64,000 nucleotides of DNA from Apostichopus japonicus (Eukaryota > Echinodermata > Holothuroidea > Aspidochirotida > Stichopodidae). Shown here one piece after another: positions 1,183-41,815 of this stretch. The stretch is from positions 39,765,611-39,829,610 of the forward strand of contig NC_092576.1 in the NCBI RefSeq assembly GCF_037975245.1, in the 5' to 3' direction. The position numbers and the translations under genes are program-made. The notes below the pieces were generated by a model. It had not been told where the DNA came from and searched no databases. It saw only the letters and a list, made by a program, of their open reading frames with translations. Position 1 is the first letter of the stretch, and each line of letters begins with the position of its first letter.

Positions 1183-1195
1183 CTTTCAGTGGGAA

Positions 1196-2145
1196 CTAAC
1201 AAGTAACACCAGGTGTAATTGTACAGTCCCATTCTCTGTTGACACATACGCAGCGTCGGCAGCTTGGGCTGCCGGAAAGGTAGCCTCTGGTTTGGGCTTT
1301 CACCACATTACCCACACAAGGGCCGCCGGCTGAAATGTACATAAAGCAACATAATCTTTGATATCAATATATGTAACTAAAATATTGGTTACTTCTGTCT
1401 TATGGAAGGAAACGTGAACGAATAATTAATATCTCTCTCTCTCTCTCTATATATATATATAGGTAAGTGGTTAAAGGGACAAGGAGTAGCAAGATTTGAA
1501 ACTATTTTATAGAGCAGAGTGTCGGCCAAGCGAAGCATTCTTAAGGATGCCTTTCCAATTGGCAAAACTGTCGCTATCAGAAAGTGGTAAACCAGCACGG
1601 ACCTTGATTTTAGTCCTTTTGGTACCGTTTTGTTTTTACGGTAAAATCTGTAGTTGAAAAGGTGATGCCGATACCTAACCCTTTTTTCGGAAAGGCGTCG
1701 AAGACTTTTCAAAGTTTCAAAGGTGCTCTCCATTTTGAAGCATAGTTGGATCAATTAGATACAAACAGTGAAAGTTATATAGGAATTAACGGAGAAAACT
1801 GTTCATCAACTATGCTGCATTTAGAGAAAGGCTGTATCTCGAGTGAGATACAATAAATAAATTAAGTAGCCTAAGTGATTGAAACTTATCTTGAAACTAA
1901 TAATCACTATGTACAATGTCTACCAACTGTACATATGCACGCAGAACTGTGTATAGTTAATAATTGTCGTGTTCGATCAATAAGAAGTGTAGAAATCGAT
2001 CGATCGATCGAAATCGATCGATAATAAGTGTAGAAACATGCCATAGTGCAACTCAAGTTCACATAACCCTCTCACCTTCAACGGTCATCACCGCAGCTAC
2101 TGTGAGCAGTAGAAAAGCAAGACAGATTATTCTCACGGCGGCCAT
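1196..2145 (-). CDS. Secreted six-cysteine mini-protein D (2 coding exons)
   Basis: Two coding exons: 2145-2076 (ATG, 23 codons plus 1 nt) and 1329-1196 (43 codons plus TAG), joined in phase 1 across GT-AG borders (donor GTGAGA, acceptor ATTTCAG). The 67-residue product starts with a hydrophobic signal peptide (MAAVRIICLAFLLL...) and likely cleaves at VEA|GG. The mature ~43 residues have six cysteines spaced C-x18-C-x2-C-x-C-x6-C-x7-C, like the first subdomain of VWC domains or pacifastin-like modules. A donor (AAAG|GTACTG) follows the stop by about 13 nt, so a 3' UTR exon lies further left. Gene layout matches A, B and C, but the sequence is the most diverged: longer first loop, with an RR pair inside the CxxC. 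Function is unknown; a secreted defence, signalling or inhibitor peptide is inferred. Confidence 0.8.
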
Positions 2146-2739
2146 TTTGTTTTGTCGATGTACAGAGGCTGTGATTTAACAGAATAATAAAGAAGGGAAC
2201 GATGAAAAATAAATAGCATCAAGCCAATAAGGACTTCTTTTATTATGATGAACATTACAGCCACATGCAATAACGTGTATAAATGGGTCTCTACCAGATA
2301 ACGCGTATATCCTATTTGTTTGAAACTTGCACTGTGTGTTTGAATAAAGGAATACATTGGCACATCGCCAGGTGTTATGTTTTCTTTATTTGCAATTAAA
2401 AGCTGTCGTTGTTCCTAGTTTTGATGTACCAATAAATTATCATGTGAACTATTAATACAGGTAAACGATTTCCCCAAAAAGTCGATACAATTCGGAAAGC
2501 TCTTTTGAAAATAACTATTATTTAAAAAAAATATAATCGTTAGGCCACGCCTTGATGACACCATAGGATATGAATGTTCAGCATCTTCAGGAACCTTGAT
2601 CAACTGATCAATATTTCTCGAAAAACGTGGTGTATAGGTCTTGGAATGGTCTGGTTCCACAGTACCTTGTGGACATGTTCCGTCAAACGAATAACATATT
2701 ACCATTCCCTATAAGGTCCACCACGCGAAATAATTTATA

Positions 2740-2885
2740 CTTAGAGTGAAGTTATACCAAGTATCAACAGACAACATTTTCATATGTTGCTGCTAAGGAG
2801 TGGAATTGAGTTATCAAAGGAGTGTAAGAATGACAACTTCTTAAATACCTTTAAATGTTTTATCCAGGACTTTAACTAATTTCTT
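2740..2885 (+). mobile_element. LINE reverse transcriptase C-terminal remnant
   Basis: Conceptual translation gives a degenerate version of the motif at the C-terminus of many non-LTR retrotransposon ORF2 proteins (F-S-x3-A-x-x-W-N, then F-x(2-3)-F near the end), here with an in-frame TGA right after W-N. It is a fragment, and its clade cannot be told. Confidence 0.45.
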
Positions 2886-3109
2886 AATTTCATTTCATTT
2901 CATTGTTCCATTGTTACATTTTATGCCGTTGTCAATTTTTAAATGTATTTTTTTCCTTTTCCATTGACATCTTTTTGATTCACGTTTGTATTCTTATTAT
3001 GATTATTTTATTTGTATTCTACTTATGTATTTCAGGGCCTCGGGTGGGGGGGGGGGATGGGGGCGATTGTCTTTTACGCTAACCGAGTTTATCCTTTAAT
3101 GGTATAAAT

Positions 3110-3233
3110 AATTAAAATCCTGAAGATCCTGCTAGGATCGAAACGTCAGGCCAACTTACTTTTACACATTCTATTACACAGGCTCTGTAGTAGATAAGCA
3201 GTTTGCTAACAGTTTTATTTTATTTTAAATAAA
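3110..3233 (+). mobile_element. Retroelement 3'-end fragment, copy 1
   Basis: This ~120 bp segment matches 39262-39366. Both contain the perfect hairpin GATCCT-GCT-AGGATC followed by GAAACGTC, and both finish in the same AACAGTTTTATTTTATTTT tail. Two dispersed copies with a common 3' terminus and a truncated 5' end indicate a retroposed element tail. Confidence 0.5.
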
Positions 3234-3261
3234 TAAAATGCTAGAGGTGGACTTCAAATGA

Positions 3262-3477
3262 GCCATCATTGGCTTATGAAAGCCGCAAGCTGACCGAAGT
3301 CAGTCTCTTAGATTCATATTTAACGTCCATGATAATGAATTGTCAATTGTCAACAACCCTGTAACTGGACGACATACATTAATCTTGGAGTCACTCGAAC
3401 TCGGACATTATGATTGAAAGGCACTGGCGTTAATCACTTAGCTAACACTCCACTGAGCTAACACTCCACACTTTTTG
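3262..3477 (-). mobile_element. tRNA-derived SINE, family 2 copy
   Basis: Read on the minus strand it has a tRNA-like head (TTAGCT..., then a TTCGAGTGACTCC box B) followed by a body shared with the copies at 7394-7566 and 57698-57895. The shared body includes CTTCGGTCAGCTTGCGGCT. No open frame is expected. Confidence 0.65.
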
Positions 3478-4230
3478 TAACATGAAATAAGCTACAAAGT
3501 AGAAGGCACTTGATGAGTTTTCAAATTTACAAAATCATTAATCATTTCACTCCAGTACCTTCATAGCACATCATATTTAAGTACAGAAGCGCAGTTTCTT
3601 AAATAAAACTTAACGAAGTATATTAACATTACATATGTTGACTTCTTCACGAATATGAGACCACATGGCACATGGCATCACATTAAAGCAGAAAGAGTTT
3701 TGAATTACTATTAAAAGTGAGTTGTGTGTAAATCTGCTTGTGAAAAAAAGGAACGTTCTTTCACAGCCTGCAGCTTTAGCGATCAAAATTGGCGTAATAA
3801 AAACTTTCAGATTTACAGTATTTACTGTAATCTGTGTGTGAATCGGTGGCATTTACGCTTGTCTCCCAACCCCTCTACCACAATAGGTGGTTGCGTCGCT
3901 GGTTGGGAGTGGTGTAGATATGAATGTGACAAATGTGTTGCTTATTGGGTTTTATCAATTAGTTTCAAGATAGAACTGCTGCTATTCGAATTGCAAGTAC
4001 AATACCGATTGAGATTTTGATCTCATCACGCAACAAGTACAACGGCACCGACCACAAGGTAATAATAACAAGAACCATCATAATTATGCTATTGCTATAC
4101 TGGATAACAGAGTTCTAAAATTTGTGCAAACTTATACAAACTAACGGGGGAAAAAATACAAAAATTAATCACTTTAAATTTCGCTAATGACTACAATTTT
4201 CGCTACATAATAGTTTCAATTGATAAATGC

Positions 4231-4232
<2 letters not shown>

Positions 4233-4286
<54 letters not shown>
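4233..4286. repeat. (TA)n microsatellite
   Basis: Uninterrupted alternating TA for about 54 bp, next to the hammerhead-bearing SINE at 4331. Confidence 0.95.
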
Positions 4287-4287
<1 letters not shown>

Positions 4288-4330
4288 CTATGATGGTTGT
4301 GAAAACGATTGGAGAGTTCTATACCAAGAG

Positions 4331-4470
4331 AATCACTGTGGCCGAGTGGTATGGACTATATTGGGTCAGTAACACAGAGGTCCTATAGGTTCGGTTCCTG
4401 TCTTCGCCTGGTGAGTCCCAAAAAGGACGAACCCGGTCGTGGAGTTGCATTTTGGTATATTGATCGTTAA
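4331..4470 (+). mobile_element. tRNA-derived SINE with degraded hammerhead (copy 1)
   Basis: Box A-like GTGGCCGAGTGGTAT at 4338-4352 and box B-like GGTTCGGTTCC at 4388-4398 form a tRNA-Ser/Leu-like head. Directly downstream is a hammerhead-like segment (4402-4444). The same order, head then hammerhead, recurs on the minus strand at 35020-35150, so the two parts form one element. Confidence 0.7.
4402..4444 (+). ncRNA. Degenerate type I hammerhead ribozyme
   Basis: Stem I is CTTCGC paired with GTGGAG (six pairs with GU wobbles). Stem II is GTCC/GGAC with a CAAAAA loop. The cleavage triplet is GTC. The conserved core reads CTGGTGA instead of CTGANGA, and GAAC instead of GAAA, so two invariant positions are changed and this copy is probably inactive. 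Confidence 0.65.
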
Positions 4471-4622
4471 TAAGTTTATAACTTATGCATATTCATAAAA
4501 TAGATTAGCAATTTTTCTTCATATGCCATTGCATATTGTAATATGTTAAGTGCAAAATATGATTACAATCGAAAAAGAAAGAATTCCAAACGTTGGACGA
4601 TAACAATCAGACAGTTTTAATT

Positions 4623-4625
<3 letters not shown>

Positions 4626-4684
<59 letters not shown>

Positions 4685-4696
4685 CATATACATATA
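4626..4696. repeat. (TA)n microsatellite with TG/CA interruptions
   Basis: About 70 bp of alternating TA with a few G and C interruptions near the right end. Confidence 0.9.
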
Positions 4697-4788
4697 AACA
4701 CACAAAAATATATGCTTACGAAAGTGTGTACTGCTAGACGATTAAAAAATAAAAGATATGGTTGTGATAATATTTCTAAATCACTTAC

Positions 4789-4838
4789 TTGTAACTAAAA
4801 GTCGAGGTTGGAATCAGCAATTTCAGGAACTTGATTAA
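4789..4838 (-). promoter_or_regulatory. Candidate 5' UTR exon and TATA promoter of peptide gene D
   Basis: On the minus strand a TATAAAAG box (4862-4870 region) is followed about 30 nt later by a short potential exon that ends at 4789 with a strong donor (GTAAGTGA). An acceptor (AAATCACAG) lies about 20-30 nt upstream of the gene D start codon. This mirrors the 5' UTR exons of A and B. There is no expression evidence and the transcription start is approximate. Confidence 0.4.
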
Positions 4839-4899
4839 ACCAATTCGACAAGATTGTGTTTCTTTTATACGAAAGCTAAATGTCATCAAAAATTGTATT

Positions 4900-5470
4900 T
4901 TTTACAGTAACCAAAGTTTTTCTGGATATATTATGATTATTATCATCATTTTTACAATTGTCTTCATTATATGAAATGCGTTTTTTTTTTTAAATCATTC
5001 AAACTTCGATATTTACCTGACACAGCTTGTCAAAAATATCGGTTTCTTAACTTTCCAGGACTCTAAAATTAGCCAATAACTTAATCAAATTGATAGCCTT
5101 CGTCTGAATTCATTGTTAACTCAACCACCCATGAAGACTTCCTGCTGGTTCCCCCCTGCTGAATCTCTTTTGAGACTTGACATGATCCCCTTGTGAATAC
5201 CAAATATTTGGTGTAGAAAAAATGGAGAGAACCTGAAGAAAACGGGTAACGACATCTTCTGACATTTCATCAAAAATCACCAGTCCGTTTATAAACATCT
5301 TTTCCCAAAAATTATTATTCATATTTTCAAGATGAATTTCTTGCCAATTTTAAAACAAACTTCTAATACAGATGTATTGATTGACATTAGCAGGTTGTTG
5401 CAACCGATACACACAGAGACACATTTACTACTGATAATCTGAAAAGTTTTGTACCAAAGTAAAACTTGAT
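4900..5470. other. No gene recognised
   Basis: AT-rich DNA. A 68-codon minus-strand open frame at 5116-5322 has no recognisable domain and no supporting splice context, so it is not called. Confidence 0.4.
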
Positions 5471-5473
5471 CGT

Positions 5474-5624
5474 GCTATAATTCGGTAGCATGTGCTATTT
5501 CGATTACAGTAAGAACTGAGGAAATGTGTGATCCCAACAAATCCAGTTTGATGCGTTTGTTGGGATTACACATAATCCTCAGTTCTTACTGTAATCCTAA
5601 AAGCACATTCTACCGATTTATCAG
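5474..5624. repeat. Foldback hairpin element
   Basis: Left arm 5474-5541 and right arm 5556-5624 are inverted copies, separated by a 14-nt loop. The inner ~40 nt (from GATTACAGTAAGAACTGAGG to CCCAACAAA) are almost perfect. The arms could form a cruciform, or an RNA hairpin if transcribed. A foldback MITE is most likely, and a hairpin RNA precursor is possible. Confidence 0.75.
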
Positions 5625-5639
5625 ATTTGTCAACACAGT

Positions 5640-7390
5640 CCTGTTTTAAGTGTGGTACAAAGTTTGAAGATTTACAGTCGTTACTCTCTCTGTCAATATC
5701 GCTGTGTGAATCGGCTTGTTATACCATTACATTTTAAACTTAAAAGTTATAAAATTAGGAACAACATTCAGTTAACTAGATATAAATGTGGAAAACCATT
5801 AATAACTTGCTAAATACAAATAAATTAAAAAATTAAAAAGAGAGAAAGAGAGAAAGAGGAAGAAACATATGTAATGTTGATGCACGGTCAAGAATGTTGT
5901 AAAACTATTATACTATTTATTGTTCAATGTAATACAGTTAGTGATAAACAATGTTACACAATCATGTTAGACAACACTGCACAACGTTATACAACAGTAA
6001 AGATGTTGTGGCAAAGCAATTTATAGTTAATAGAATTCGGGTATAACATGTTCTACAAGATAATACGCTATAAGACATGTTGTTATACAGTGTTATAAAA
6101 TAGTATAGTTGATATAGAATATTAAGTATAAAAACGTACAGTGTTAAACAATGTTTGATAATGTTACACAATATCATACAATGTTAAAATTTGATTGGTT
6201 ATACAGAATAATTTTCATCTAACTATAATGATCACATTTTGGATCAACATTTTTATTAACTAGTTCAAAGATGTATCTCCGTTTCACAGTTGACATTATA
6301 GACAACTGTTTGATATTTAAAATAACCTGACTGATACTTTATTCTGCAATTGATCCATGTAAGGCAACTTCCCATGTAATTAATGAACGAACGTGACCAT
6401 AATGTAATACACTGTTGTGCTTGTTATATATCACATATCTAGGACAACTGATTTAATATGTTAGGAGGAGGGGGATTCCCGACAGCCCCGCGACTCTATG
6501 AAATATGGAATGATGAATAACCAAGTATTTTTTAAGGCAAAATAAGCCTTCAAGTGGTCAGAGCAGGGGGGGGGGGGTCGGGGGGGGGGGTAAAACGGGG
6601 GGTGGGCGTTGGATCTTTGGCATAATTTTCTCCGGGATCAGACCAGGCATTTGACGCGCCCTGGTGGTGCATCACTATCGTATATCAAAGTGATATCTGC
6701 CTATTTTTTATCTGAACTCTTTTTCCTCTTAAATCCTTTCTGATGTTCTTAGCACAATGCATTAACTGTTCGTGTGTTTCTTGCAAGCTGCATATTACAT
6801 ATATGATGTCATACTGCTTGTAACATTTATTTTATGATTTGAATGTAGACGGCATTGTAATTGAAGAACTTTGTCATATGTCAATGTAATTTGCATAGTT
6901 CTTCCAATCAGAACTCTAGAACGAGAATGAGCTGATAGGAACACGAGAAACTGTCATGAATTCGTCAGATGTCGATTTCTCGTAATTTATTTCCAATATT
7001 TTCCCTCTTTTTTTCCCCGCCACAAATGTCTGGTCGCAATCTCCGTCTGAATACTAGGGATTAAGAACACAGCTTGACACAGGAATATATCATAATATTT
7101 CATACTTAATCGAATGTTTAACATTGACAATTCTGAATGTAACTGGAGCAAAACGGATAAAGTTTATAAAGATCAGAGGTATAGGATTCCTACACGTTAG
7201 CACATTTCAAGGTACATCGTATAAATATCCTTAATCATCCAAGAGTGAAAAACAATATAGTGAATACCAGCATATTTGTTTGATGGTATGAGTTTATTAG
7301 AAACAATGTATGTCAGAAACAGATCATTAGTTTAATTTAAGGACCCCGTCAGGTACAGGCTGTATTTTGTTGATTGTAACTCATTGTATA
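5640..7390. other. Intergenic, degenerate short repeats and G-runs
   Basis: From 5880 to 6190 the sequence is a degenerate array of short ACAATGTTA/ACAACATT-like words. G-runs lie at 6567-6590. No exon, RNA gene or clear mobile-element terminus was found. Confidence 0.4.
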
Positions 7391-7393
7391 TTA

Positions 7394-7566
7394 AGGCGTG
7401 TTAGCTCAATGGTTAACGCGGGTGCCTTCCAATCATAATGTCCCCAGTTCGAGTCACTCCAAGATTAATGTATGTCGTTCAGTTACAGAGTTGTTGACAA
7501 TTCATAATCATGGACGTTAAATATGGATATAAGAGACTTCGGTCAGCTTACGGCTTTTATAAGCTT
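7394..7566 (+). mobile_element. tRNA-derived SINE, family 2 copy
   Basis: The head has GTGTTAGCTCAATGGTTAAC (box A-like) and AGTTCGAGTCACTCC (box B-like). The body, including CTTCGGTCAGCTTACGGCT, matches the minus-strand copies at 3262-3477 and 57698-57895. Confidence 0.7.
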
Positions 7567-8515
7567 GCAGGAGGATCTAAAATACATACATATGTAAGCG
7601 AGGCCGATTACGGTAAATGTAGAGTTCGGAAGGATACAAAAATATACTATGTATAACACTGTGAACTGTGCGTAACATATATTTAATCAAAAGTATTATG
7701 TACAACACTGGATTCGTGCGTAACATATATTTAATCAAACGTACTATCTAACACCTCGTTGCCAACTCAACCAGCCTTCTCTACAAGCGAGCCAGGGCTC
7801 GCCGACAGCTACCATGCATCACTGAACAAAAAGATTAAACTATTGTTACAAAAATAAAGGGCATCATTCCTATATCGTCTTAGCATTTCGGATATGCAAA
7901 TGAGGGATAAAGGTTAAGGGTGAGAGTGAGAGTGAACTTTACAATTGAATACAGTCGTTTGTTATTTCATTAAAAATATAGTGGGCCATCAGTCTTTATT
8001 ATAAGATGTTACACATACATACATATTATTGAAGTGAGTGGAGGATCTAGTTTAGCAGACAGGTCGGTTTTGGCCTAGATCATGTGACCATGTGTGTAAA
8101 ACAGTACACATCCAGTCTATTCTCATGACTTTATGATTTAAGGCTGGTAAAGGTGAGTAACCGTTAATCAGTTCAAACTGATGTGTGTTGTAATTTCTTA
8201 ACATGTGTTACAGTTATGACCAGTTGCTACTGAGGACTTACAAAACAGAAAATACTAAACACATAATCCTTTACATACTGATTGACGGGACTAACCAGAC
8301 TACTCTAAAGGTCTTCGCCAATAATTCCGACCACATTTTAACAGAAAATGGATGGCACTTTACTGCAAACTATTAAATCTGCAATTTGAACCATCTGTAT
8401 TCATAAGGTATTCTTACTAGTCAAACATAGAGACAGCTGTTGTTTAGACTCCTAGCCAGTCATTAGTTGAAACATCCTATGAGTAATAAATTCGTCTGTT
8501 AGTATTGGATTTCCT
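7567..8515. other. No gene recognised
   Basis: Unique-looking AT-rich DNA. An ATACATACATATTATTGAAG word near 8018 recurs near 37860. No coding evidence was found. Confidence 0.35.
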
Positions 8516-8518
8516 TCT

Positions 8519-9110
8519 GTAGCATCTGCTGACAGGTATAACATGTGTAACGGTGTTACAACACACTTCAGTTTATACTGATAAATGGGTGTCTCTTATT
8601 CACAGTACAAACTGCAACATCCATGTGCATTGGGTGCACAGTAGCATCTGCTGACAGGTATAACACGTGTTACGGTATTGTAACACACTACAGTTTATAC
8701 TGATTAACGGTTGTCTCTTATTCACAGTACAAACTGCAGCATCCATGTACATTGGGTGCACAGTATCATCTGCTGACATGTCTAACATACGTTACGGTGT
8801 TATAATACACCTCAGTTGATACTGATAAATAGTTGTCTCTTATTCACAGTACAAACTGATGAAAGGCATGTACATTGGATGCACATCAGCATCTCCTGAC
8901 ATGTGTAACATATGTCACGGTGTTATAACACACTTCAGTTGATTCAGATTAACGGTTGTTTTTTTCACAGTACAAACTGATAACGCCATGTACATTGGGT
9001 GCACAGTAGTATCTACTGACATGTCTTACATGTGTTGCGGTGTTACAACACACTTCAGTTTTAAACTCAATTCACAGTACAAACTGATCAAGCCATGTAC
9101 ATCTCGTGAC
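8519..9110. repeat. ~121-bp tandem repeat, about 5 units
   Basis: Units begin near 8521, 8643, 8765, 8887 and 9007, each with ATCTGCTGACA...AACATRYGTTACGGTGTT and TTCACAGTACAAACTG. Divergence increases to the right. Open frames across it are repeat artefacts. Confidence 0.85.
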
Positions 9111-10490: not shown

Positions 10491-10493
10491 ACT

Positions 10494-10539
10494 GTAGCGC
10501 GCATGCGCACTACAATATATACATATATATATTGCAGAA

Positions 10540-10593
<54 letters not shown>

Positions 10594-11874: not shown

Positions 11875-13370
11875 GTACTTTACTCTGTACTTGTGACTGT
11901 ACTATGATATTGTCTGATCTGTGACTTGTGCTTGTGACTGTACTATGATATTGTCTGATCTGTGACTTGTACTTGTGACTGTACTATGATATTGTCTGAT
12001 CTGTGACTTGTACTTGTGACTGTACTATGATATTTTCTGATCTGTGACTTTCACTTGTGACTGTACTATGATATTGTCTGATCTGTGACTTGTACTTGTG
12101 ACTGTACTATGATATTGTCTGATCTGTGACTTGTACTTGTGACTGTACTATGATATTTTCTGATCTGTGACTTTCACTTGTGACTGTAATATGATATTGT
12201 CTGATCTGTGACTTTCACTTGTGACTGTACTATGATATTATCTGATCTGTGACTTGTACTTGTGACTGTACTATGATATCGTCTGATCTGTGACTTGTAC
12301 TTGTGACTGTACTATGATATTGTCTGATCTGTGACTTGTACTTGTGACTGTACTATGATATTGTCTGATCTGTGACTTGTACTTGTGACTGTACTATGAT
12401 ATTTTCTGATCTGTGACTTTCACTTGTGACTGTACTATGATATTGTCTGATCTGTGACTTGTACTTGTGACTGTACTATGATATTGTCTGATCTGTGACT
12501 TGTACTTGTGACTGTACTATGATATTTTCTGATCTGTGACTTTCACTTGTGACTGTAATATGATATTGTCTGATCTGTGACTTTCACTTGTGACTGTACT
12601 ATGATATTGTCTGATCTGTGACTTGTACTTGTGAATGTACTATGATATTGTCTGATCTGTGACTTGTACTTGTGACTGTACTATGATATTGTCTGATCTG
12701 TGACTTGTGCTAGTGACTGTACTATGATATTGTCTGATCTGTGACTTGTACTTGTGACTGTACTATGATATTGTCTGATCTGTGACTTTCACTTGTGACT
12801 GTACTATGATATTGTCTGATCTGTGACTTGTACTTGTGACTGTACTATGATATTTTCTGATCTGTGACTTTCACTTGTGACTGTACTATGATATTGTCTG
12901 ATCTGTGACTTGTACTTGTGACTGTACTATGATATTGTCTGATCTGTGACTTGTACTTGTGACTGTACTATGATATTTTCTGATCTGTGACTTTCACTTG
13001 TGACTGTAATATGATATTGTCTGATCTGTGAATTTCACTTGTGACTGTACTATGATATTGTCTGATCTGTGACTTGTACTTGTGACTGTACTATGATATT
13101 GTCTGATCTGTGACTTGTACTTGTGACTGTACTATGATATTGTCTGATCTGTGACTTGTGCTAGTGACTGTACTATGATATTGTCTGATCTGTGACTTGT
13201 ACTTGTGACTGTACTATGATATTGTCTGATCTGTGACTTGTACTTGTGACTGTACTATGATATTGTCTGATCTGTGACTTGTACTTGTGACTGTACTATG
13301 ATATTGTCTGATCTGTGACTTGTTACCTATGACTATACTATGACATTGTCTGATCTCTGAATGATGCTAG
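11875..13370. repeat. 41-bp minisatellite, about 36 units
   Basis: The unit is CTTGTGACTGTACTATGATATTGTCTGATCTGTGA plus a variable end (CTTGTA or CTTTCA), and is almost invariant in length at 41 bp. Subtypes alternate in a patterned order. A marker subtype with GTAATATG recurs at 12188, 12557 and 13008, exactly 9 and 11 units apart, showing amplification in blocks. No coding frame is conserved. Confidence 0.97.
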
Positions 13371-13576
13371 TGTCTGTACTGTTTGGCGTTAGCATGTTGT
13401 TATTTGGTTCCTTTCCATTCTGCATAATGATTAATTGGTTAAAGTTGCTTTCAGGCTTTTTTCAAGAGGGTGCTTATAATGCAGCTGCTCTTAAAGTCCG
13501 GAATATTTTGTTTTTTCCTGTAAAAGTAAGGGTTCTGTATTTTAAAATAAAGTCGGTTGCAAAAGCTGAAGTATAC

Positions 13577-13590
13577 AATTATTATTATTA

Positions 13591-13626
<36 letters not shown>

Positions 13627-13648
13627 TTATTATTATTATTATTATTAT
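13577..13648. repeat. (ATT)n microsatellite
   Basis: About 70 bp of ATT with rare C interruptions. It lies at the left border of duplication copy 1 and creates artificial Tyr-rich and Ile-rich open frames on the two strands. Confidence 0.95.
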
Positions 13649-14479: not shown

Positions 14480-14993
14480 GAAATGCTCTCTAAACTATTT
14501 ATTATCAACAGAAACGTCAAACATTACACTGTGTAAATTAACTTAAAATGCAAGTATATTATGTAATAAATTGCTTTTAACCACAATCCAATCGCCATCT
14601 TCTGGATACCAAAATAACTCAGTCTTATCTGGGAATATGTTAACGTTCTGATTTTTCAAAATCCTTTGTAATTTGCGATTTTTATGTGTCTGATTGTTTC
14701 AGAAATGTAAACTTGATTTGGCTGAACGTTTCGGCTGCGTTTGTAGAACTATTTAAGGTTCCAATGCCATGTTGCAGGGACAGCAAAACGTAGTGACAAG
14801 GAGAAACAATTTAAGACGCAACAATTTGGGTCACCAGAGTAGATGATGGATGTTCAGGAAATGTTGTCTAACCAAAGTAACAGGAAATGAAAAGGCATAG
14901 CCAGTGGCCACATGCAGTACGCTGGAGAGAGATAGAGTAACGAGATAAGACGAGAAAACCATACACAGAGTTCCAAAGAAGTTGTCGCATTTC
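14480..14993 (-). other. 3' UTR exon of peptide gene A, with poly(A) signal
   Basis: An acceptor (TTTTATTTCAG) opens this exon at 14993. It pairs with the donor GTAGAG|GTAACT that follows the gene A stop codon (exon end 15705). AATAAA lies at 14503-14498 on the minus strand. The same acceptor and AATAAA occur in copy 2. A short open frame inside is disrupted between copies by a 2-nt indel, which fits UTR rather than coding sequence. Confidence 0.6.
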
Positions 14994-15717: not shown

Positions 15718-16040
15718 CTAGCATGCACCGTCTTCCTTTGCGCATTCATATACACCATCGACGCACTGGCACACTTTACAGCTACCGTCATGGGTAGGAG
15801 TGTACGTAAACGAGTTCGGTGCACAACCTGTAAAAATAACAAAATATAAAAAATGATATAAAAAGAACAAAATATAAAAAAAGAACAAAATATAAAAAAT
15901 AATATAAAAAAATATATATATTAATATGTAAAAAATTATACAACAAATCCTTTTAAAAGATAACAAAATATAAACAAATCTATAAAAGATAACAAAATAA
16001 ATAAAGAAAATATAATAAAATGATATATTATAATAAAGTT

Positions 16041-16084
<44 letters not shown>

Positions 16085-17072
16085 ATAACTGATATTTTAA
16101 TTCCTAATGAATCATGTGATTTTTTTTTGGGGGGGGGGGGTTCTCGCTAAGATTGGAATCAACTTCCCTACGTTAAACTTTTGTATGTAGTAAAATTCCA
16201 GCTGGAATACAACTGTCTATGTTTCTTGACACATAACATATAATTCCGCACCAAACGCAACACGCAGTGTGCACGGGAATCTATATCGAATTGAGGTCAT
16301 CGTTCTAGCCCCTAGAAGACCCGTCCCCGAAAAGACTAAAACAACATTAAATGCAATGTCTGCTGCTCCATCTCGTAAGAAAATATACCAATCTATAATC
16401 CCTTTGATAACTTTCCGGAAAAAAATGGGAGTATTTGACTTGAAAACTGAAAATGAAACCATTTTAGATTTTGAGGAGAGATGAGCTGTGAAGACAAGAG
16501 AAAAATGGACTTTTTATAGAATTTTGGAGTCCATAACTCACGCAAAAATCGGAAACATGTTACCTTTCTGACGTCAGTTGACTAACATCGGTAATTTTAC
16601 CAAACCTAACAGGTATTAATTTAAGATAAAGCGCCATTCATTAAACTATATATATATAACGATATATATATATATATGTTTTTGTGATCAAAAATAATAA
16701 ATAAAGAATAATGAATGAAAAAGTCTGTACTTTTTCTGCCGATAAAGTTATTCGCTCAGACATCGTATCATATAACAACACATGCAAACGAAACTTACGA
16801 GTATTGCCAGGTTTAACGTCTCGACTTATATTCACCATTTGAGATGAACTAAACTAGAATAGTGACGCTAATAACCTCTTTCTGTTATCTTATGAATTGA
16901 CATTATCGAACTTAGAAAAAGAAAGAAGGATCCAAGATTGTAGAACGCAGTAGCTGTTGGTGACCATCTTGTAACCATTGGATGCGTGAAACTCACCTGC
17001 ATTCACCATAGCAAACATGGAGACGGCAGACAGCACCATCAAGACGAGAAATACGAATCTAACCGAAGCCAT
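15718..17072 (-). CDS. Secreted six-cysteine mini-protein A (2 coding exons)
   Basis: Coding exons 17072-16997 (25 codons plus 1 nt) and 15827-15718 (to TAG) join in phase 1 (donor GCAG|GTGAGT, acceptor TTTTTACAG). The product is 61 residues: a strongly hydrophobic signal peptide with a VNA|G cleavage site exactly at the intron, then a ~36-residue mature peptide spaced C-x14-C-x2-C-x-C-x6-C-x6-C. Landmarks are HDGSCKVCQC and YEC. Spacing resembles VWC subdomain 1 or pacifastin light-chain modules, so three disulfides are expected. The exon continues 13 nt past the stop to a donor at 15705, leading to the 3' UTR exon at 14993. A non-coding 5' exon lies at 18988-19045. B at 24977-26453 is the tandem paralogue. 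The molecular target is unknown. Confidence 0.87.
16043..16082. repeat. (TA)n microsatellite
   Basis: About 40 bp of alternating TA in the intron between the two coding exons of gene A. At the matching place in gene B the tract is much shorter. Confidence 0.9.
16445..16510 (-). pseudogene. Relic copy of the signal-peptide exon 5' part (gene A intron)
   Basis: The minus strand has an acceptor (TCTTCACAG) followed by CTCATCTCTCCTCAAAATC and an ATG (16462). This closely resembles the leader just upstream of the true start of gene A (CTCAACTCACACGAAAATCC then ATG). After the ATG the similarity to the signal peptide is lost. The relic is shared by gene B near 25850. The frame after the ATG differs between the two copies through a poly-T length change, so it does not look coding. 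Confidence 0.5.
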
Positions 17073-23482: not shown

Positions 23483-24014
23483 GAAATGCTCTCTTAACTA
23501 TTTATTATCAACAGAAACGTCAAACATCACACTGTGTAAATTAACTTAAAATGCAAGTACATTATGTTTTGATGATGATTACGTGATATAGTAATAAATT
23601 GAATTTAAACAGAATCCAATCGAAATATTCTGGCTTACAAAATAATTCAGTCTTATCTGGGAGAATGTTAACGTTCGAATTTTCAAAATCAGTTTTGATT
23701 TTCAATTTTAATGTGTCTGATTGTTTCAGAAATGTAAAATGTTTTTGGCTGAACGTTTCGGCTGCGCTTGTAGAACTATTTAAATTTCCAATGCCATATT
23801 GCAGGGACAACAAAACGTAGTGACACGGATAGACAATTTAAGAAGCAACAATTTGGTCACCAGAGGACATGATGGATGTTAAGAAAATGTTGTTTAACCA
23901 AAGTAACAAGAAATGAAAAGGCATAGCCAGTGGCCACAGGCAGTACGCTAGAAGAGAGTAACGAGATAAGACGAGAAAACCAGACACAGAGTTCCAAGGA
24001 AGTTGTCGCATTTC
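23483..24014 (-). other. 3' UTR exon of peptide gene B, with poly(A) signal
   Basis: This is the counterpart of 14480-14993. An acceptor (TTTTATTTCAG) opens it at 24014, matching the donor GTAGAG|GTAATT at 24964 just after the gene B stop. AATAAA lies at 23506-23501 on the minus strand. Confidence 0.6.
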
Positions 24015-24976: not shown

Positions 24977-26453
24977 CTAGCAGGGACCGTCTTCCTTTGT
25001 GCATTCATATTCACCACTGACGCACTGGCACACTTTACATCTACCGTCATGGGTAGTAGTGTACGTAAACGTGTTTGGTGAACAACCTGTACAAAATAAC
25101 AAAATATGAAAATCATATAAAAAATAACAAAATATAAAAAAATAATATAAAAAATAACAAAAATACAAAATAATACAAAACATAAATTTAAAAAATATAA
25201 AAAATAATATAAAAGATAACAAAATAAAAAAAATAATATAAAAGATAACAAAATAAAAAAAATAATAAAAATTACAAAAAATTACAAAATCATCCAGATC
25301 TAAAAGAGAAACCACAAACCAATAACAACAACAACATGCATGCATTGTCGATATTTTTAGACTAAAAATGGTAATTAAAAATTTAACATAATAAATTCGG
25401 CCTTATAAAACCTTAGCGAACTAAACCTTCCACGTGAATGATTTGATAAAATATATATATATAATCTTGTATAACTGATTTATTTTAATTCCTAATGAAT
25501 CCTGTGATGTTTTTATAGGGATTCTCGCTAGGATTGGAATCAACCTCTCTGCGTTAAAATTTTGTATCTGGTAATATTCCAGCTGGCATACAACTTCCTA
25601 TGTTTGTTAACATAGAACATATAATTCCGCACCTAACGCAACACGCAGTATGCACGGGAGTCTATATCGAATTGAGGTCATCGTTCTAGCCCATAGAAGA
25701 CCCCTTCCCTTCCCCGAAAAGATTAAAACAACATTGAATACAATATCTGTTGCTCCATCTCGTAAAATAATATACCAATCTATAATCTCTTTGATAGCTT
25801 TCCGAAAAAAAAATGTATGTATTTGATTTCAAAACTGAAATTGAAACCATTTTGGATTTTGAGGAGAGATGAGCTGTGATGACAAGAGAAAAATGGAATT
25901 TCTAAATAAAATTGGATTCCTTAACTCACGCAAAAATCGGAAACATGTTAACTTTCTGACGTCAGTTGACTAACATCGATAATTTGACCAAACCTACTAT
26001 ATAACTAATTAAGATGAAGCGCCATTTATTAAACTAAGTACAAGTCATCCTAACACAAGATATATATGTTTTTGTGATCAAAATTAACGAATAATAAATA
26101 AAAGAGTAGTGTACTTTTCCTTCCGATGAAATTATTCGCGCAGACATCGTATCATATAAGAATACATGCAAACGAAACTTACGAGTATTGCCAGAATTGA
26201 CGTCTCGACTTATTTTCACCATTTGAGATGAACTAAACTATATAAGTGACGCTAATAACCTCTTTCTGTTATGTTATGATTTGACTTTATCGAGGAAAAA
26301 AAACAGTAGAATCCAAGACTGTAGAACGCAGTAGCTGTTGGTGACCATTCTGCAACCGTCGGATGCGTGAAACTCACCTGCATTCACCATAGCAAACATG
26401 GAGACGGCAGACAGCACTACCAAGACGAGAAAAACGAATCGAACGGAAGCCAT
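24977..26453 (-). CDS. Secreted six-cysteine mini-protein B (2 coding exons)
   Basis: Coding exons 26453-26378 and 25086-24977 join in phase 1 (donor GTGAGT, acceptor TTTTGTACAG), giving 61 residues. The signal peptide differs from that of gene A by one residue (Val for Met at 12). The mature ~36 residues keep all six cysteines and spacing (C-x14-C-x2-C-x-C-x6-C-x6-C) but differ at eight positions, including Ser to Arg before the second Cys, Asp to Ser and Val to Glu in the C4-C5 loop, and Ala to Pro before the last Cys. Between A and B I count about ten replacement nucleotide differences and one silent one in this exon, against about three silent differences and one changed codon in the signal exon. 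Exon layout, 5' UTR exon and 3' UTR exon match A. Confidence 0.87.
25840..25905 (-). pseudogene. Relic signal-peptide exon leader (gene B intron)
   Basis: Counterpart of 16445-16510: acceptor (TCATCACAG), leader CTCATCTCTCCTCAAAATCC and ATG at 25850. The downstream frame is shifted relative to copy 1 by a poly-T length change, so it is not under coding constraint. Confidence 0.5.
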
Positions 26454-32280: not shown

Positions 32281-32284
32281 ATAT

Positions 32285-34440: not shown

Positions 34441-34445
34441 CGATA

Positions 34446-34921
34446 TGTTTTGTAATAAGCTGTTTCCGCCGTAAGGCGCTTCAGCGAGCCAGGGACGAAA
34501 GCCCCTGACCGGTAAAAATAAGACCCCATGGTTTGAGATCTGAAAATTTGAGCGTGTGTAAATATGACTTAGAGAACTTGAGAACTTTGTGGGCCTGGTC
34601 TGGGAGACGTGCTGAACGTGGCTGGAGAATGGCAGGATGGAACGTAGCATGTTTGGAGGGAGGCGATGAGTGGTGGCTGGCTTCAAGGACTGGATTGGCG
34701 TAAAATAGCATAGATTGTCTTGTAAATAGCTGTTTCCGCCGAATGGCGATTCAGCGAGCCAGGGGCGAAAGCCCCTGACCGGTAAATAAAATACTCCTAA
34801 AATGAGAGATCGGAAGTGAGAGATTTATTTTTAAATTTGAACTTTGTGGGCCGGGTCGGAGAGACACGTGGCTGGACGGTGACAGGAAGGTAGCATGTTA
34901 TGGTTGGAGGAGGCGATGAGG
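34446..34921. repeat. Two tandem copies of a ~280-bp dispersed repeat
   Basis: AGCTGTTTCCGCCG starts copies at about 34457 and 34729. Both contain TTCAGCGAGCCAGGG.CGAAAG followed by CCCCTGACCGGTAAA, then a TTGTGGGCC.GGTC block and an AGGCGATGAG end. It resembles a retroelement 3' end but carries no protein. Confidence 0.7.
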
Positions 34922-35019
34922 CACATCGGGGCAGTGATCTGACGTCTTACACTTTTCGATTCTATCCTAATTATATATATATATATATTTATATATTGTA
35001 TATACATAAAGAACATCAC

Positions 35020-35150
35020 ACCAGACAAATTCCACTTCACGACCGGTTTCGTCCTTGTGGGACTCATCAGGCAAAGGTAGGAATCGAACTCCCGGATCTT
35101 GTGTCACAGACCGAAGTCATTACCACTCGACCACAGTGATTCTACTGGTG
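35020..35150 (-). mobile_element. tRNA-derived SINE carrying an intact hammerhead (copy 2)
   Basis: Read on the minus strand: box A-like GTGGTCGAGTGGTAATG (35134-35118), box B-like GGGAGTTCGATTCC (35093-35080), then the hammerhead (35076-35035), then an AT-rich tail ending in (TA)n. The head-plus-ribozyme order is the same as at 4331-4470. Confidence 0.75.
35035..35076 (-). ncRNA. Type I hammerhead ribozyme, intact core
   Basis: In order on the minus strand: stem I 5' strand CTTTGC, core CTGATGA, stem II GTCC/GGAC with CACAA loop, core GAAA, minimal stem III within ACCGGT, cleavage triplet GTC, stem I 3' strand GTGAAG (six pairs including two G-U). All invariant positions of the hammerhead core are present. 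Stem III is too short for a stable monomer, as in hammerheads of Penelope-like elements and the schistosome Sm-alpha SINE-like family, where dimers cleave better. Self-cleavage is inferred, not shown. Confidence 0.8.
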
Positions 35151-35159
35151 TGTGAATGC

Positions 35160-36032
35160 GTTTAAATTGGCTTTGTATAACTGTCATTGAGAGCGTATAG
35201 CCCAAGTGTTATAATTGTACAGAGTGCACCCCTGGTGCTTTGAATCTGACAATTTACACAGTATAACCACTCTTTAATAAAGGCAAGCCAAGCCGTAAAT
35301 AAGAAATGAATGTGTAGCAAATGGTATGACAGATATCACAAACAGAGACGCCTATAATGATAAACAAAATCCCTCCCCGAACCGTGAAATACAAAATTTT
35401 TCATTTCGCCTGATAGGCTGTTATCATGCTCAGGGTGTAAATCATTCAAGTAACAAACTAGAGACAATTAGGCTCTAATTAGGCATCGAAAACAAAACTA
35501 CTGGTGCTTGTATGTTTAATGTTTCATCGCATTTGGTTTTATCTTTATTTTGCTTATTTGTTTTCACGGAGGAGAGGATGTGGATCGACTAATCAACTCA
35601 GGATACTAAACTGCAGATGTTTCCAAACAAGTGCGGAAAATATGGCCGCCACATGACACTACATAAAGTTTATTTCAGCAGTAGCATAACATTAGAACAT
35701 GAAATGCAAGCTGAGGAGTCTGAATGTAAGACTTAATAATAAGGAGGGGGTAGTGGTGGGAAGGGGAGGAGGAAGGGTGTAGAGGGCTATGTGTGATATA
35801 TGACGGTGTGAAGTGTAAAATATCATTCTGTTCATTTTATCCAGTGATGTACAAACATAAATATATATATTTATTATCATTAGGTATATCAAGAGTCCAT
35901 GACCAAGTTCCGTAAAAATAAATTAATTGAGATAGGGGAGGGGTGAAACGGTACAAATTAAAATTCAACAACTAATGAAGAGTAGCAGCTGTTTCTAATT
36001 GTATAGTAATATTGATAAGGATTAATGTTAAT

Positions 36033-36119
<87 letters not shown>

Positions 36120-38630
36120 CAAATATATCATATTCATTACGCGTGTTTGCGCCTGATGAGTTGAAGGAATTCATAACTTACTTTGAACGATGGAACTTTT
36201 AGAACATTTCGACGCCCGTGTTAGAAATTAACACAAATTAATGACAATTCCAGAAACAAATATATATATTAAAAAAAAATTATTTCAGTTTATTTTTTAT
36301 GATAAATTTGAAAGTACAAGCTGCACCTATAAACATATATAATGTTATGTTTTTAGTATCACCACGAAAATCGAAAAGAAAAAAAAAATTCTCCAAATGA
36401 GCTTTGGAAAAAAATGGTTAAATATATACTAGCATTGATAGACACTTCTTAATTAGATATCGTATCGTGCTCCGATACTTTTCTGAATGATAGTAATGGC
36501 TACTTTTACGTCGACTAAATGACACCAAGGACTACAAATGACTTCCTTGAGTACTTTAGCCTTAATTTAACGCTGCCTTAAACATCAAGTCTTCCAACAC
36601 CTCCCCCCCCTGCACCCCCACCCCCGCAAAAAAAAAAGGAAGAGACATTACAGTGTGGAGGTGGAACGTTTTGTTATGATCTCACTTTGATATAAATGGT
36701 AAAAACAAATGTGAATTTTAAGAAGAAAAAGAAGAAATATAATGATATTGGTTTATGTAATTTTAATAAAAATTAGAAAGGTGATAAACCTTTGTCTCTG
36801 TCGTTGAACGGTCTCAAGGTGTAATGTGCGGAATTACAAAAATTCTAGGATCTTTAGCTTGGGAAGGTTTTATTCAATTCTAACTTCATTATTTATAATT
36901 CGGTGCGAGAGAGATGTGTTTTATTTGAGATATTTTCCTCCGGAGGGAGAGGGAGGGGGGAGGTGGAGGGAGGGGGTGGCGTTGTTGCTGGGGTCTATGG
37001 ATATTAAATTCGAACGACAAAAACGCAAATGAAGACAGGTCAAGTGAAGTTTCAGAAACATAAGTTGATCGGGAGAGGGTACGTGTGGGGGGGGGGGCGG
37101 TGTTGACGAAGGGGAAGGCTTGCGAGGATTAATACTTCTTAATTCATATTTACAAAACCAATGACAAGAGAACAAGTTATTTTGTCATACCCTCGTTTAT
37201 TGCTTGACTCAAATATATTTATTATATATATTTATATATATATATTCATATATATATATATATATATATTCACATATATTATGTATATAGATATATATAT
37301 ATAACATTTACGCATGCGCAGATACCACCACCATCTTCAAGCGACTGTAGGCTACACCCTTTGCAGCTAATCTGAGATTGTATAAATTGGTCGATCAAGA
37401 GTTTCAGTTGCTAAGACAACAATGCTCGTCGTCCCAGGAGTAATCAGTTCCAAGTTGTTTTACGATCTTTCATCGTCCAGGCCAGATGAAACTTCCATCT
37501 ACGTCTACAAGACAACCGCCACCATCGCGTACCTTTATCATCCCAAACCGAAAAACTAACGTTGCAAGTTGGTGATATCTGAAGAAACGTTACGAGAAAG
37601 AGAAACAAGATAAGAAAATGGGAGGTTGCGGCGGGGAGGAGGTGGGGTGGTGTAGAAGGAGTGGGGTGGTGGGGAGACGGTGGGGGAGGGAAGGATAGAA
37701 AATTCTAGCTTGTCCTTTGAAATTGACTCTCACTTGTTAGTCAACCATACACATTTTTCACTTAAATCGTGATATTGATTTCTGTAAATGTCTTACGTAG
37801 CTGATTGATTGTGAGATCTAGGCTAGATTTGAACCTCGTGATTGCAGTTTCAACTTACATACATATTATTGAAGTGCGTGTGCGCGCTACAATATTGGCA
37901 TTACTGGCCAAGTGGACGATACCTACATGACTGGAAGTTGAAACTTATAGTTTCATATAGTCTCTGTACATTTGCAGTTTCACAAGCTATAGCTACGTAG
38001 CCAACTTATTATGAACCTGTCACGGAGCTCACAAGCGCCCTCACTGTGTAGGTACCTACTTGACTATATTCCCTGGTGTGTTGTCCACCCCCCCCCCCCC
38101 AAAAAATAACACCCATGAACAACCGAAAAGTTCTTCCTTATACTACAAGCACTCCACGCTCACTACAATATAGTCTTGTTAATACCCAAGTATGCTATAG
38201 GCAACTGCTTCAGTATGAGCCAGCCGAAAGCTTCTCTATGTTAGCTCTGTGGTGTTACTTATATAGCGCCCCCCAATTTATTCAGTTTCTTTTCGATACG
38301 TTTGTTACCACTGATCTGTACAGTGTTTGTAACGGACAGATCCTTGGGTAAGCTTAATTCAGTGGACAAGCGCCCTCGTATGCATACATAATCCCAAGAT
38401 GTGTAGATATACAGCATGCAGTGCATAGAGACTATAGCGATGTAATGATAAGCTGCTACAATAATGCGGACGAGCGCCCCCGATCGTGCAAACATATTAC
38501 CGGTATCGTGGGAGCTTCGTGTTAGATTAAAAGTACGCAAGAGAAACGAACATTACAGACGTCTTGACCAGACTAACTAGAATACTGCGTATTTGCAGGC
38601 AAATGCAGTTCTATATAGTTGTTGTTGTTG
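35160..38630. other. No gene recognised; microsatellites
   Basis: Long (TA)n tracts lie at 36032-36119 and 37211-37303, with G/C homopolymers at 36603, 37087 and 38090. The sequence between them shows no recognisable exon. Part of it may be the last intron or 3' UTR of gene C; a minus-strand AATAAA lies at about 38276-38281. Confidence 0.4.
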
Positions 38631-38644
38631 TTTTACTCACGTGA

Positions 38645-39940
38645 TCAGCAACTGCCGGCCTCTATCAGACAATCCAGCTCCCCAATCTTGCATCTACAGA
38701 CTTTACAATCTTTCCCGCCGTGGATCGGGGTAAAAGTCATGGATCCGGACTTGCACGATTCTAATCGGTGAAAGAGTTAAATCGACCGAAAATATAAACA
38801 TAAACATGAACACTACAAATGAAACACTGCAAGTTATGGATCATTCATATTTATAAATATGCATCTGGTTCTGTTGGTATACCAAGTAATAATAATACAT
38901 TATTTTTATATAGCGCCAAACAAACTATGAAATAATTCTAGTATCGCTTAACATAATCATAAAACATATATGCTTTTGTGAAAAGATACATTTGAGAAGT
39001 CCTGGAAGTGAGTTCCACAGGCACGGTGCACTGGATGCGAACGTTCTCAAGCCGTGAGTCTGTGTTTTTACTTTATATGTACATACGTATATATATTCAA
39101 AAAGGAAAATATGCCTCACTGCTGTGAGAGGAATTCTCAGGTACAGCTGCAAATATTTCTTATTGTTATGTAAATAAGTTGTTCAGTAGAGAATCCTCAG
39201 TTATCTTTGTAATTACTGTCCCTCTTCAATTTATCTAACAAGGGAGCTTGTCATTTAGCCTTTGAAGAAGATCCTGCTAGGATCGAAACGTCAGACCAAC
39301 TTACTATTACATATTCTCCTACACAGGCTCTCTAGTGGATAAGAAGTTTGCTAACAGTTTTATTTTATTTTGAAGGGAGCCACGGTCAGATACCTCTCGC
39401 CTGTACTCTCATACAAAGTTGACACCATTTTATTTCTCCTGCAATCATCTTCGTTATCTCTGTTCTGAATCTTAACTTACCATGTGTGTTCCCCTCCAAG
39501 AACTTAGTTCGGTTCCTCGCTCGACATTATAGATCAGTTCAACCCCCCCCCCCACCCACGATCTCAGTATTAGTATAGCCCCTAAGCATGAGGTTGATTG
39601 AATGTAACCTGTCTACCCCCCCTTCCCCACCTCTCCCCTGCCTACGCACATAATTCCAACATGAAGTGATAATATGTGGCAAATTTTAGTTGTTTATCTT
39701 AAAACTCTGCAATTTTTGGGAATAAGTTGGAAATTCAGAACCTTCTGGAACAGTGGAAAGTACTTTTGAAAACTTTTTTTTCGAGTTTGAAAGAAAATGT
39801 TTGGGCAAAACCTGCTCGATTTTTGAAGCGTTCAAAACATATTAATTAATTCTTTTTTACTTACCTGCATTCACGTAGTAAGCCATCGTAGTCATCAACA
39901 GCACGACCACCAACAGACACATGTACACAGATGAAGCCAT
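38645..39940 (-). CDS. Secreted six-cysteine mini-protein C (2 coding exons)
   Basis: Coding exons 39940-39865 (25 codons plus 1 nt; donor GTAAGT) and 38760-38645 (to TGA) join in phase 1, giving 63 residues. The signal peptide is hydrophobic (core LLVVVLLMTT) and ends VNA|E, again at the exon junction. The mature ~38 residues are spaced C-x15-C-x2-C-x-C-x6-C-x6-C with a DCKVCRC landmark matching the KVCQC block of A and B. Four nt after the stop comes a strong donor (CAC|GTGAGT), the same arrangement as in A, B and D. A LINE fragment sits in the intron. The acceptor used (CACCGATTAG) is acceptable but not strong. Confidence 0.8.
38880..39100 (-). mobile_element. LINE 3'-end fragment (gene C intron)
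   Basis: Minus-strand translation near 39060-38990 gives LRTFASSAPCLWNSLP, a form of the C-terminal motif of many LINE reverse transcriptases. Its downstream end, GGCGCTATATAAAAATAATG followed by (ATT)n, resembles the tail of the family 1 SINE at 57048. Confidence 0.6.
39262..39366 (+). mobile_element. Retroelement 3'-end fragment, copy 2
   Basis: Second copy of the element end at 3110-3233: hairpin GATCCTGCTAGGATC, GAAACGTC, CACAGGCTC and the AACAGTTTTATTTTATTTT terminus. Confidence 0.5.
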
Positions 39941-40129
39941 TGTAGTGTTATTACCGGGTTAGTTAGTTATAGTTAGTCGGTATACGAATGATTCTGTCAG
40001 ATATATTAAAATTATAGAAAAGAAAAGATATTCGGCAAGCAATCATCAATGTTAACCAATAATTATTTTGTTCGTTTTTTTTGGGGGGGGGAGGGGGGGG
40101 GGCTTTGCTTTTTTGTCTTTCTCTCCCGA

Positions 40130-40202
40130 GCCTTGAGCACCCTTCCGCGTGGAAATGCGCGCGTTATAAATCACCATTATTATTATTATGATTATTATAA
40201 AT
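40130..40202 (+). mobile_element. Possible retroelement tail ending in (ATT)n
   Basis: GAGCACCCTTCCGCGTGGAAATGCGCGCGTTATAAATCACC-type sequence runs into ATTATTATTATTATG, the same general ending (GCGC..TATA..ATT repeats) as the SINE and LINE tails elsewhere in the window. Confidence 0.35.
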
Positions 40203-40667
40203 ATTAAGTAAACATTTCGATCTTGATTTAATCGAATTGACTATATGTTTGGATAATATATAGAGGACAATGATATTTGATTATGATATTGATATTCTTT
40301 TGATATTGATACTTAGCGATCATGAATAATAACAACAACAACAACATTGATGGAATGTTTGACAAGAAATGGCTGATAAGTTAGTTATCAAAGTAAAACA
40401 GGTAGGTGTCATAATGTTTTCGTTTTCTTAATTATGCTGAATTAGTAAACACGAGAAACCACATGATCTTCAGCGGGATAAGGTAGAAAAAGGATAATGG
40501 TATGATAATATCAAACAGCTAACAGGTACCCAAGTGCTCTTGATCGAGTCGACATCTCCTTGCGGTAAAACCATATATATATGCTACCATATATTTATCA
40601 ATATCATGGTTACAGTAGAAAGACTTGAATTTGCAACGACACAGAGCATTAGAAGTATATGTATAAC

Positions 40668-40966
40668 CAGGCGCGTAGCCAGGAATTTGCCATGGGAGGG
40701 GCGAAACTGTAGATTCTGCATTGCAAACTATCTAAGCGTAGCACCACCATGATTGGCGCGAAGCGTACAAGAAAATTTTGGCTGAAAATGCCTCCCAGAT
40801 CGCTGGAAATGGCACTTCCCAGGCCTTGTAAGTTGCATCTTAGCATTTTCTCTTTTGAAAATACTAGCGATATCATAAAAAACATTAAAAAAAAAATTAA
40901 AAATAATGCTCAAAGGGGGGGGGGGGGAGCTGCCCCCTTCGCCCCCCCCCCTTGGCTAGGCGCCTG
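40668..40966. mobile_element. hAT-type MITE, 299 bp
   Basis: Terminal inverted repeats CAGGCGCGTAGCCA (left) and CAGGCGCCTAGCCA (right, reverse complement) are bordered by a perfect 8-bp target site duplication TGTATAAC (40660-40667 and 40967-40974). The 8-bp duplication and CAG terminus fit the hAT superfamily. No transposase is encoded. Confidence 0.92.
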
Positions 40967-41760
40967 TGTATAACCCCCTGGATTTAAGACACTTCATCAG
41001 AGGAATTTGTATTTGTTAAATTAGTGCCCAAGAGATGATTTTAGTTTTATACTTATAAGGTTATACTTATGATGCTCCCCGTCCCTTGACGCTTGAGGGA
41101 GTGAGGTAATGAGGTTCTTACGCCACGCCCCGTCAATGGACTCTTAGCGGTAGATGTCGAAAATTTAGACTATCTACTAGCTAAATGCCAGTAGATAATC
41201 ATTGTTTATCAGTAGAAAGAAAAAATGTATTGGCATTTTTCTGTCGATATAGACACATGTTGCTATTGTATTAATTGAACCAAAACACCAGTGGCAATTT
41301 GATGGTAGGCCTACAGCAAGATTTTAGTCAGGTTTGCACTCAACTTTTGTTAACAAGTAATACAAATTTGTTAAACTCCAGACTTGTGTTGCAGTTTATG
41401 TATTATGAAGTACGGCCACAGAAAAGACCATATTAAACCATAATATGCTATTAATTGTGTTCGAATCACCACTTTTCTGTTACCTGGCTCATAAATGAGG
41501 TTCTTAGCAGTAAATATATATGTTCAACACGTCTCATGTCGAACCATTGCCTTAACCTTACTGTATAATGGAAATTATTATTTTGCAAGATTCGATATGA
41601 GTTTGTTAAGTAAGGAAGAATGGAAAGTAAAGGAAACAGAGGAAAAAAGGAAAAGACAATCACACAAAGACGCATACACACACACACACACCAAAAGAAA
41701 AATGCACGCACGCAAAAACACACACACGAACATACAAACAAAACTGAAAAAAAAACTTAC

Positions 41761-41815
41761 GAATTGAAGATCCAATACTAGGCAATGTTCTGATCCTTTC
41801 TGGAAACCGGTGGAA
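41761..41815 (-). promoter_or_regulatory. Candidate 5' UTR exon of peptide gene C
   Basis: The minus strand shows ATATAAAT (about 41848-41841) followed by a short potential exon ending at 41761 with donor GTAAGTTTT. An acceptor (TATCTGACAG) precedes the gene C start codon by about 60 nt. It is placed by analogy with A and B. Confidence 0.35.

Follow-up and report, generated by a model that had tools for sequence, protein, structure and literature searches.

At least five tandem genes for predicted secreted six-cysteine mini-proteins in the sea cucumber Apostichopus japonicus

The VWC module contains ten cysteines in two subdomains, and the C-x2-C-x-C core of the CFC domain is part of a six-cysteine half-VWC framework with disulfides pairing cysteines 1-4, 2-6 and 3-5. 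TGF-beta/BMP/activin signalling is modulated by the CFC domain of Cripto and by the VWC modules found in chordin-type proteins. Here we describe a row of five related genes (g1 to g5) on contig C16 of Apostichopus japonicus, four of them within the 64,000-nucleotide stretch C16:39765611-39829610 (the window), that encode small six-cysteine proteins with predicted signal peptides. Pacifastin inhibitors resemble these proteins in size and six-cysteine order, their key Asn following the second cysteine. From the same species, Zhang et al. (2017) report 11 tandem PSP94-like genes on Scaffold889, with conserved cysteines and lacking homologues in other species, that are upregulated more than 10,000-fold 0-3 days after evisceration (PMC5638244).

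The five genes are a real tandem family with at least five members. As the first-pass annotation of this DNA had proposed, the window holds four minus-strand genes, at 1196-2145 (g1), 15718-17072 (g2), 24977-26453 (g3) and 38645-39940 (g4), and in each a signal-peptide exon is joined in phase 1 to one six-cysteine exon; the introns keep a GT donor and an AG acceptor in 4/4 genes and lie at, or within one codon of, the assumed cleavage site. The cluster had been counted as four genes, which is correct for the window and too few for the family, as a fifth paralogue of the same architecture (g5) lies on the minus strand at C16:39755234-39756679, 9-10 kb to the left. The coding parts of the signal-peptide exons are at 2076..2145 in g1 (donor AAG/GTGAGA, 10.7 bits), 16997..17072 in g2, 26378..26453 in g3 and 39865..39940 in g4, and the g5 signal exon is at C16:39756613-39756679. 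The six-cysteine coding parts end with TAG in g1 (1196..1329), g2 (15718..15827) and g3 (24977..25086) and with TGA in g4 (38645..38760), while that exon of g5 runs from C16:39755364 down to a stop at 39755234; all of these exons are on the minus strand.

The stop codon had also been said to lie 4-13 nt before another splice donor, and the distances to a GT are indeed 13, 13, 13 and 4 nt in g1 to g4, the exons of g2, g3 and g4 reaching 15705, 24964 and 38641; in g5 the stop is 13 nt before the donor GAG/GTAAGC. Scored with a generic, hand-entered splice matrix, these post-stop donors reach 4.8, 7.9, 7.5 and 8.6 bits in g1 to g4. The g1 exon would extend to a donor after base 1183 that is weak because sites of at least 4 bits occur in the window at 0.0063 per base (those of at least 7 bits at 0.0016). 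Under the usual rule, a stop this close to a downstream junction would not trigger nonsense-mediated decay. An AG is found 23-53 nt upstream of the ATG in 5/5 genes, with TATA-like stretches also in that region, so that the 5′ end of the genes may be a promoter near the ATG or a noncoding exon. The right edge of the annotated span, at 41815, seems to take in a proposed but unconfirmed 5′ exon of g4.

The full proteins are 61-67 residues long, lack an EGF domain, and have the V-x-A ends and hydrophobic cores of predicted signal peptides in 5/5 members. Their cysteine spacings are 18-2-1-6-7 (g1), 14-2-1-6-6 (g2 and g3), 15-2-1-6-6 (g4) and 18-2-1-7-6 (g5), the window genes agreeing with the C-x14/15/18-C-x2-C-x-C-x6-C-x6/7-C pattern first read from them, and the stop codon directly follows the sixth cysteine in 5/5. 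Assuming V-x-A cleavage, the mature peptides of g1 to g4 have 43, 36, 36 and 38 residues, which bears out their description as stand-alone peptides of 36-43 residues; mature net charge across the family ranges from -3 to +3, and under the same cleavage assumption the oxidized peptides would have average masses near 3754, 3915, 4002, 4355 and 4525 Da. Structure models of two of the five members predict a three-stranded sheet (mean predicted local distance difference test scores 82.1 and 85.8). Foldseek searches with both models gave no match at E <= 0.001, and their weak fold lists contain, between them, entries for fibronectin type I (FnI) and NEL and a single one for pacifastin. Matches to PPR proteins in the Pfam and PDB searches were rejected as chance, resting on 9-25 residues and in PDB being summed over repeats, and the remaining PDB rows, all weak (E 0.77 and 0.9), were likewise taken as chance.

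A chance origin of the four window genes is very unlikely. With six-cysteine patterns written once the genes were known, order-1 Markov simulation produced 4 motif matches in 1,140 windows, compared with 4 in the one real window, and an earlier simulation gave a tighter pattern in 0/200 and a looser one in 2/200 windows. When a phase-1 AG and a GTR close to the stop codon were required in addition to the motif, 0/1,140 simulated windows matched; the script for this splice context credited 3/4 real genes, and we take the gene not credited to be g3, whose match begins at an intronic Cys and whose splice is shown directly. Constraint on coding is also visible between the genes: codon position 3 has the most differences in 9/10 gene pairs, which are 9/9 of the divergent pairs, as in g1/g5 with 23, 20 and 38 differences at positions 1, 2 and 3. 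Only g2/g3, a young pair, departs from this order (8, 2 and 6).

The g2 and g3 genes lie within a duplicated segment with block identities of 72-92%. Their exons align without indels at 71/76 (signal), 99/110 (six-cysteine coding) and 12/13 (remainder of the six-cysteine exon) identical positions, or 182/199 for the signal and six-cysteine exons together, compared with 964/1147 and 569/678 for the introns (1533/1825 in total, with 25 indel events). The exons are thus conserved better than the introns overall (Fisher p 0.005); the lack of exon indels taken alone is not significant against the introns (0.064), and one 400-nt stretch of the first intron reaches 0.891 identity in another alignment. 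A downstream block, from a shared acceptor (TTTATTTCAG; 14993 in g2, 24014 in g3) to approximately 20 nt beyond an AATAAA common to both genes, is identical at 458/507 positions, exceeding the introns (p 0.0003), with 420/490 beyond the block. This conservation, with stops in all three forward frames, makes the block likely to be a 3′ noncoding exon with a conserved AATAAA. Such terminal exons would occupy 14480..14993 in g2 (AATAAA from 14503) and 23485..24014 in g3 (AATAAA from 23506) on the minus strand, the 3′ ends being approximate; no terminal exon could be placed in g1, g4 or g5. Between the two genes, nonsynonymous (Ka) and synonymous (Ks) divergence is 0.027 and 0.214 in the signal exon and 0.113 and 0.095 in the mature part, though with so few substitutions these counts do not prove positive selection. 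The first introns of both genes also contain a decayed-looking extra copy of the 5′ part of the signal exon with its start (approximately 16440-16520 and 25840-25920, minus strand), preceded in g2 by a TATA-like stretch.

A six-frame scan for the six-cysteine pattern over 204 kb (100 kb to the left, the window, and 40 kb to the right) found the five genes, g3 being matched twice, and no occurrence outside them, and local tblastn of the five proteins against the same 204 kb recovered all five, with remaining rows at E >= 0.17. The first-pass annotation had advised a search for the exon 2 pattern across the genome; queries g1, g2, g4 and g5 against 671,581,487 bases in 35 contigs recovered family members at the C16 cluster only, with no further match below E 0.46. 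Each of these queries missed one to three known genes (g2 missed g1; g4 missed g1; g5 missed g3 and g4; g1 missed g2, g3 and g4), and diverged copies elsewhere could therefore escape. Matches on C5, C11, C16:29.8 Mb, C21 and C23 (E 0.46 to 6.6) were rejected as members; the translations at the first four lack the six-cysteine motif, and those on C5 and C11 have a repeat in common.

The suggestion that such short split exons escape gene finders held for g3 and g4, the two genes tested: neither had a candidate match among approximately 5.8 billion proteins in a search that compares sequences of 0.55-1.75 times the query length sharing three 5-residue words. As a positive control, a PSP94 protein spliced from C16 found its A. 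japonicus NCBI entry (99% identity, with 78% of its length aligned), so that g3 and g4 seem to be unannotated and missing from public protein catalogues. The length and word limits would hide fused or longer annotations as well as distant relatives from other species; restriction of the family to sea cucumbers is not contradicted, but also not established, by this search. In sea-cucumber literature on cysteine-rich peptides, VWC, PSP94 and CFC/Cripto, no title concerned this family, most subscription journals being outside the coverage.

Profile searches show a weak likeness of the family to known modules and support membership of none. No Pfam profile exceeded its cut-off for g1 to g5, and the five exons had no NCBIfam match. 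The whole g4 protein matched CFC (PF09443) at E 7.4e-4 with 19.7 bits, below the cut-off of 23.2, and among the six-cysteine exons alone one of five matched CFC at 2.7e-4 and one of five FnI_RECK at 0.0037. The first-pass annotation had likened the spacing to VWC subdomain 1 or pacifastin-like modules and pointed to VWC, pacifastin and microseminoprotein profiles: the weak likeness stands, and membership of the VWC, pacifastin or microseminoprotein family is not supported, as none of these profiles matched any of the five genes.

The reading that we favor, at a probability of roughly one half, is that these genes encode secreted, disulfide-stabilized six-cysteine mini-proteins, extracellular binding peptides with varying mature parts that probably serve defense or surface/coelomic secretions. 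Five or more tandem genes would then produce mini-proteins of 36-43 residues by predicted classical secretion, each probably folding as a three-stranded sheet, as in the two members modelled, and held by three disulfides that may pair 1-4, 2-6 and 3-5 by analogy with the CFC and pacifastin pairings. The mature peptide would be the stand-alone half of a VWC-like module, and its loops, which vary between paralogues, may make it a small binder outside the cell. The tandem spread, a signal exon that is conserved and a mature part that changes point to secreted effectors of a defense or secretion type, and such a role appears more likely than that of a conserved signalling factor; defense or surface secretion is our leading guess for function. 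A narrower version, a diversifying and partly uncatalogued half-VWC peptide family known so far only from A. japonicus, whose secreted members act as effectors of coelomic defense or of visceral regeneration, is more doubtful.

It is unlikely that g1 to g5 are regeneration-induced factors belonging to, or functionally resembling, the tandem PSP94-like genes, despite the shared species, the similar description and the evisceration induction reported for the 11 genes (PMC5638244). Five genes were found here, not 11, and the genome search with PF05825 gave three weak rows, none of them in the cluster; the best (C20, E 0.76) was rejected because it contains an internal stop and adjoins a tandem repeat. 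A verified PSP94/beta-microseminoprotein gene (PF05825, 23.5 bits where the cut-off is 22) lies 36 Mb away at C16:3479854-3482619 on the plus strand, and encodes ten cysteines including a CC pair. As read here its introns are in phases 1 and 2, the exon 2-3 join agreeing with the NCBI protein and the start differing from it, and no second C-x2-C-x-C-x5-9-C frame was found within 40 kb around it; at NCBI the gene is named only uncharacterized protein. This gene is outside the g1 to g5 family, whose members have no PF05825 match in Pfam searches, six cysteines and no CC pair.

A role as extracellular modulators of TGF-beta/BMP/activin signalling would agree with the cysteine framework, the three-stranded models and the sub-threshold CFC match of g4 (E 7.4e-4), yet that match occurs in one of five members, the proteins have 61-67 residues and no EGF domain, and conserved developmental regulators would not be expected to change so fast or to be confined to a single cluster, making this role quite improbable. 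Pacifastin-like serine protease inhibition is a still weaker candidate, with no pacifastin profile match, a C5-C6 spacing of 6-7, and Lys or Arg rather than Asn after the second cysteine in 5/5. Finally, the lack of matches for g3 and g4 among predicted proteins and the decayed-looking signal-exon copies in the first introns of g2 and g3 would suit relic or non-translated genes, but diverged copies keep their open frames, splice sites and third-position excess, and g2 and g3 share an AATAAA, so that this explanation is very unlikely. If the favored mini-proteins are expressed, they comprise five peptides of approximately 3.8-4.5 kDa that can be tested directly in an animal used to study how organs regrow, and a mature protein could then consist of half a VWC-type module standing alone. 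The family was found through exon architecture, not similarity, in a well-studied aquaculture and regeneration model.

Several other features surround the cluster. Two VCPIP1 exons on the plus strand (window 44341-44712 and 49464-50180) encode VCIP135 N-terminal and OTU domains, with deubiquitinating protein VCPIP1 as best PDB match (E 6.8e-76), and this gene to the right of the cluster is a possible synteny anchor. A tandem array of a 41-bp unit lies at 11886-13360 (36 copies, 95% matches), a type I hammerhead ribozyme match at 35035-35076 on the minus strand (35.3 bits, cut-off 34) that may derive from a mobile element, and a tRNA-Thr (TGT)-like gene at 57049-57122 on the plus strand (Rfam 35 bits) that could be a tRNA-derived repeat.

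Among known systems, the A. japonicus PSP94 gene has in common with g1 to g5 the C-x2-C-x-C core, secretion and a phase-1 intron after the signal exon, and differs in its ten cysteines, CC pair and phase-2 second intron. For pacifastin light-chain inhibitors, Pfam searches gave no profile match with g1 to g5, in which the C5-C6 loop is longer (6-7) and the residue after the second cysteine is Lys or Arg in 5/5, never Asn. Among the small modules that can be recognized in the two models' weak fold lists, fibronectin type I is the commonest, FnI modules or chains containing them making up 9/50 and 7/50 among the matches listed. VWC (PF00093) subdomain 1 and single-VWC proteins share the first-half cysteine order with g1 to g5, which stop directly after the sixth cysteine and so lack the second-half cysteines and the two-subdomain organization; the Trp between the first and second cysteines, invariant in three VWC repeats of the A. 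japonicus genome, is also absent. Profile comparison with those repeats aligned the C-x2-C-x-C-x6-C core at 27% probability (PSP94 control 8%), and no VWC family was listed in Pfam at E <= 10, HMMER filters dropping most matches above 0.1. The CFC domain (Cripto/FRL-1/Cryptic) is alike in the C-x2-C-x-C core, and differs in that only one of five members matches it, below the curated cut-off, and in that here no EGF domain is present and the module makes up the entire mature protein. The mini-proteins of this cluster fit only weakly, on their predicted structure, to the class formed by VWC subdomain 1, CFC, FnI and pacifastin modules.
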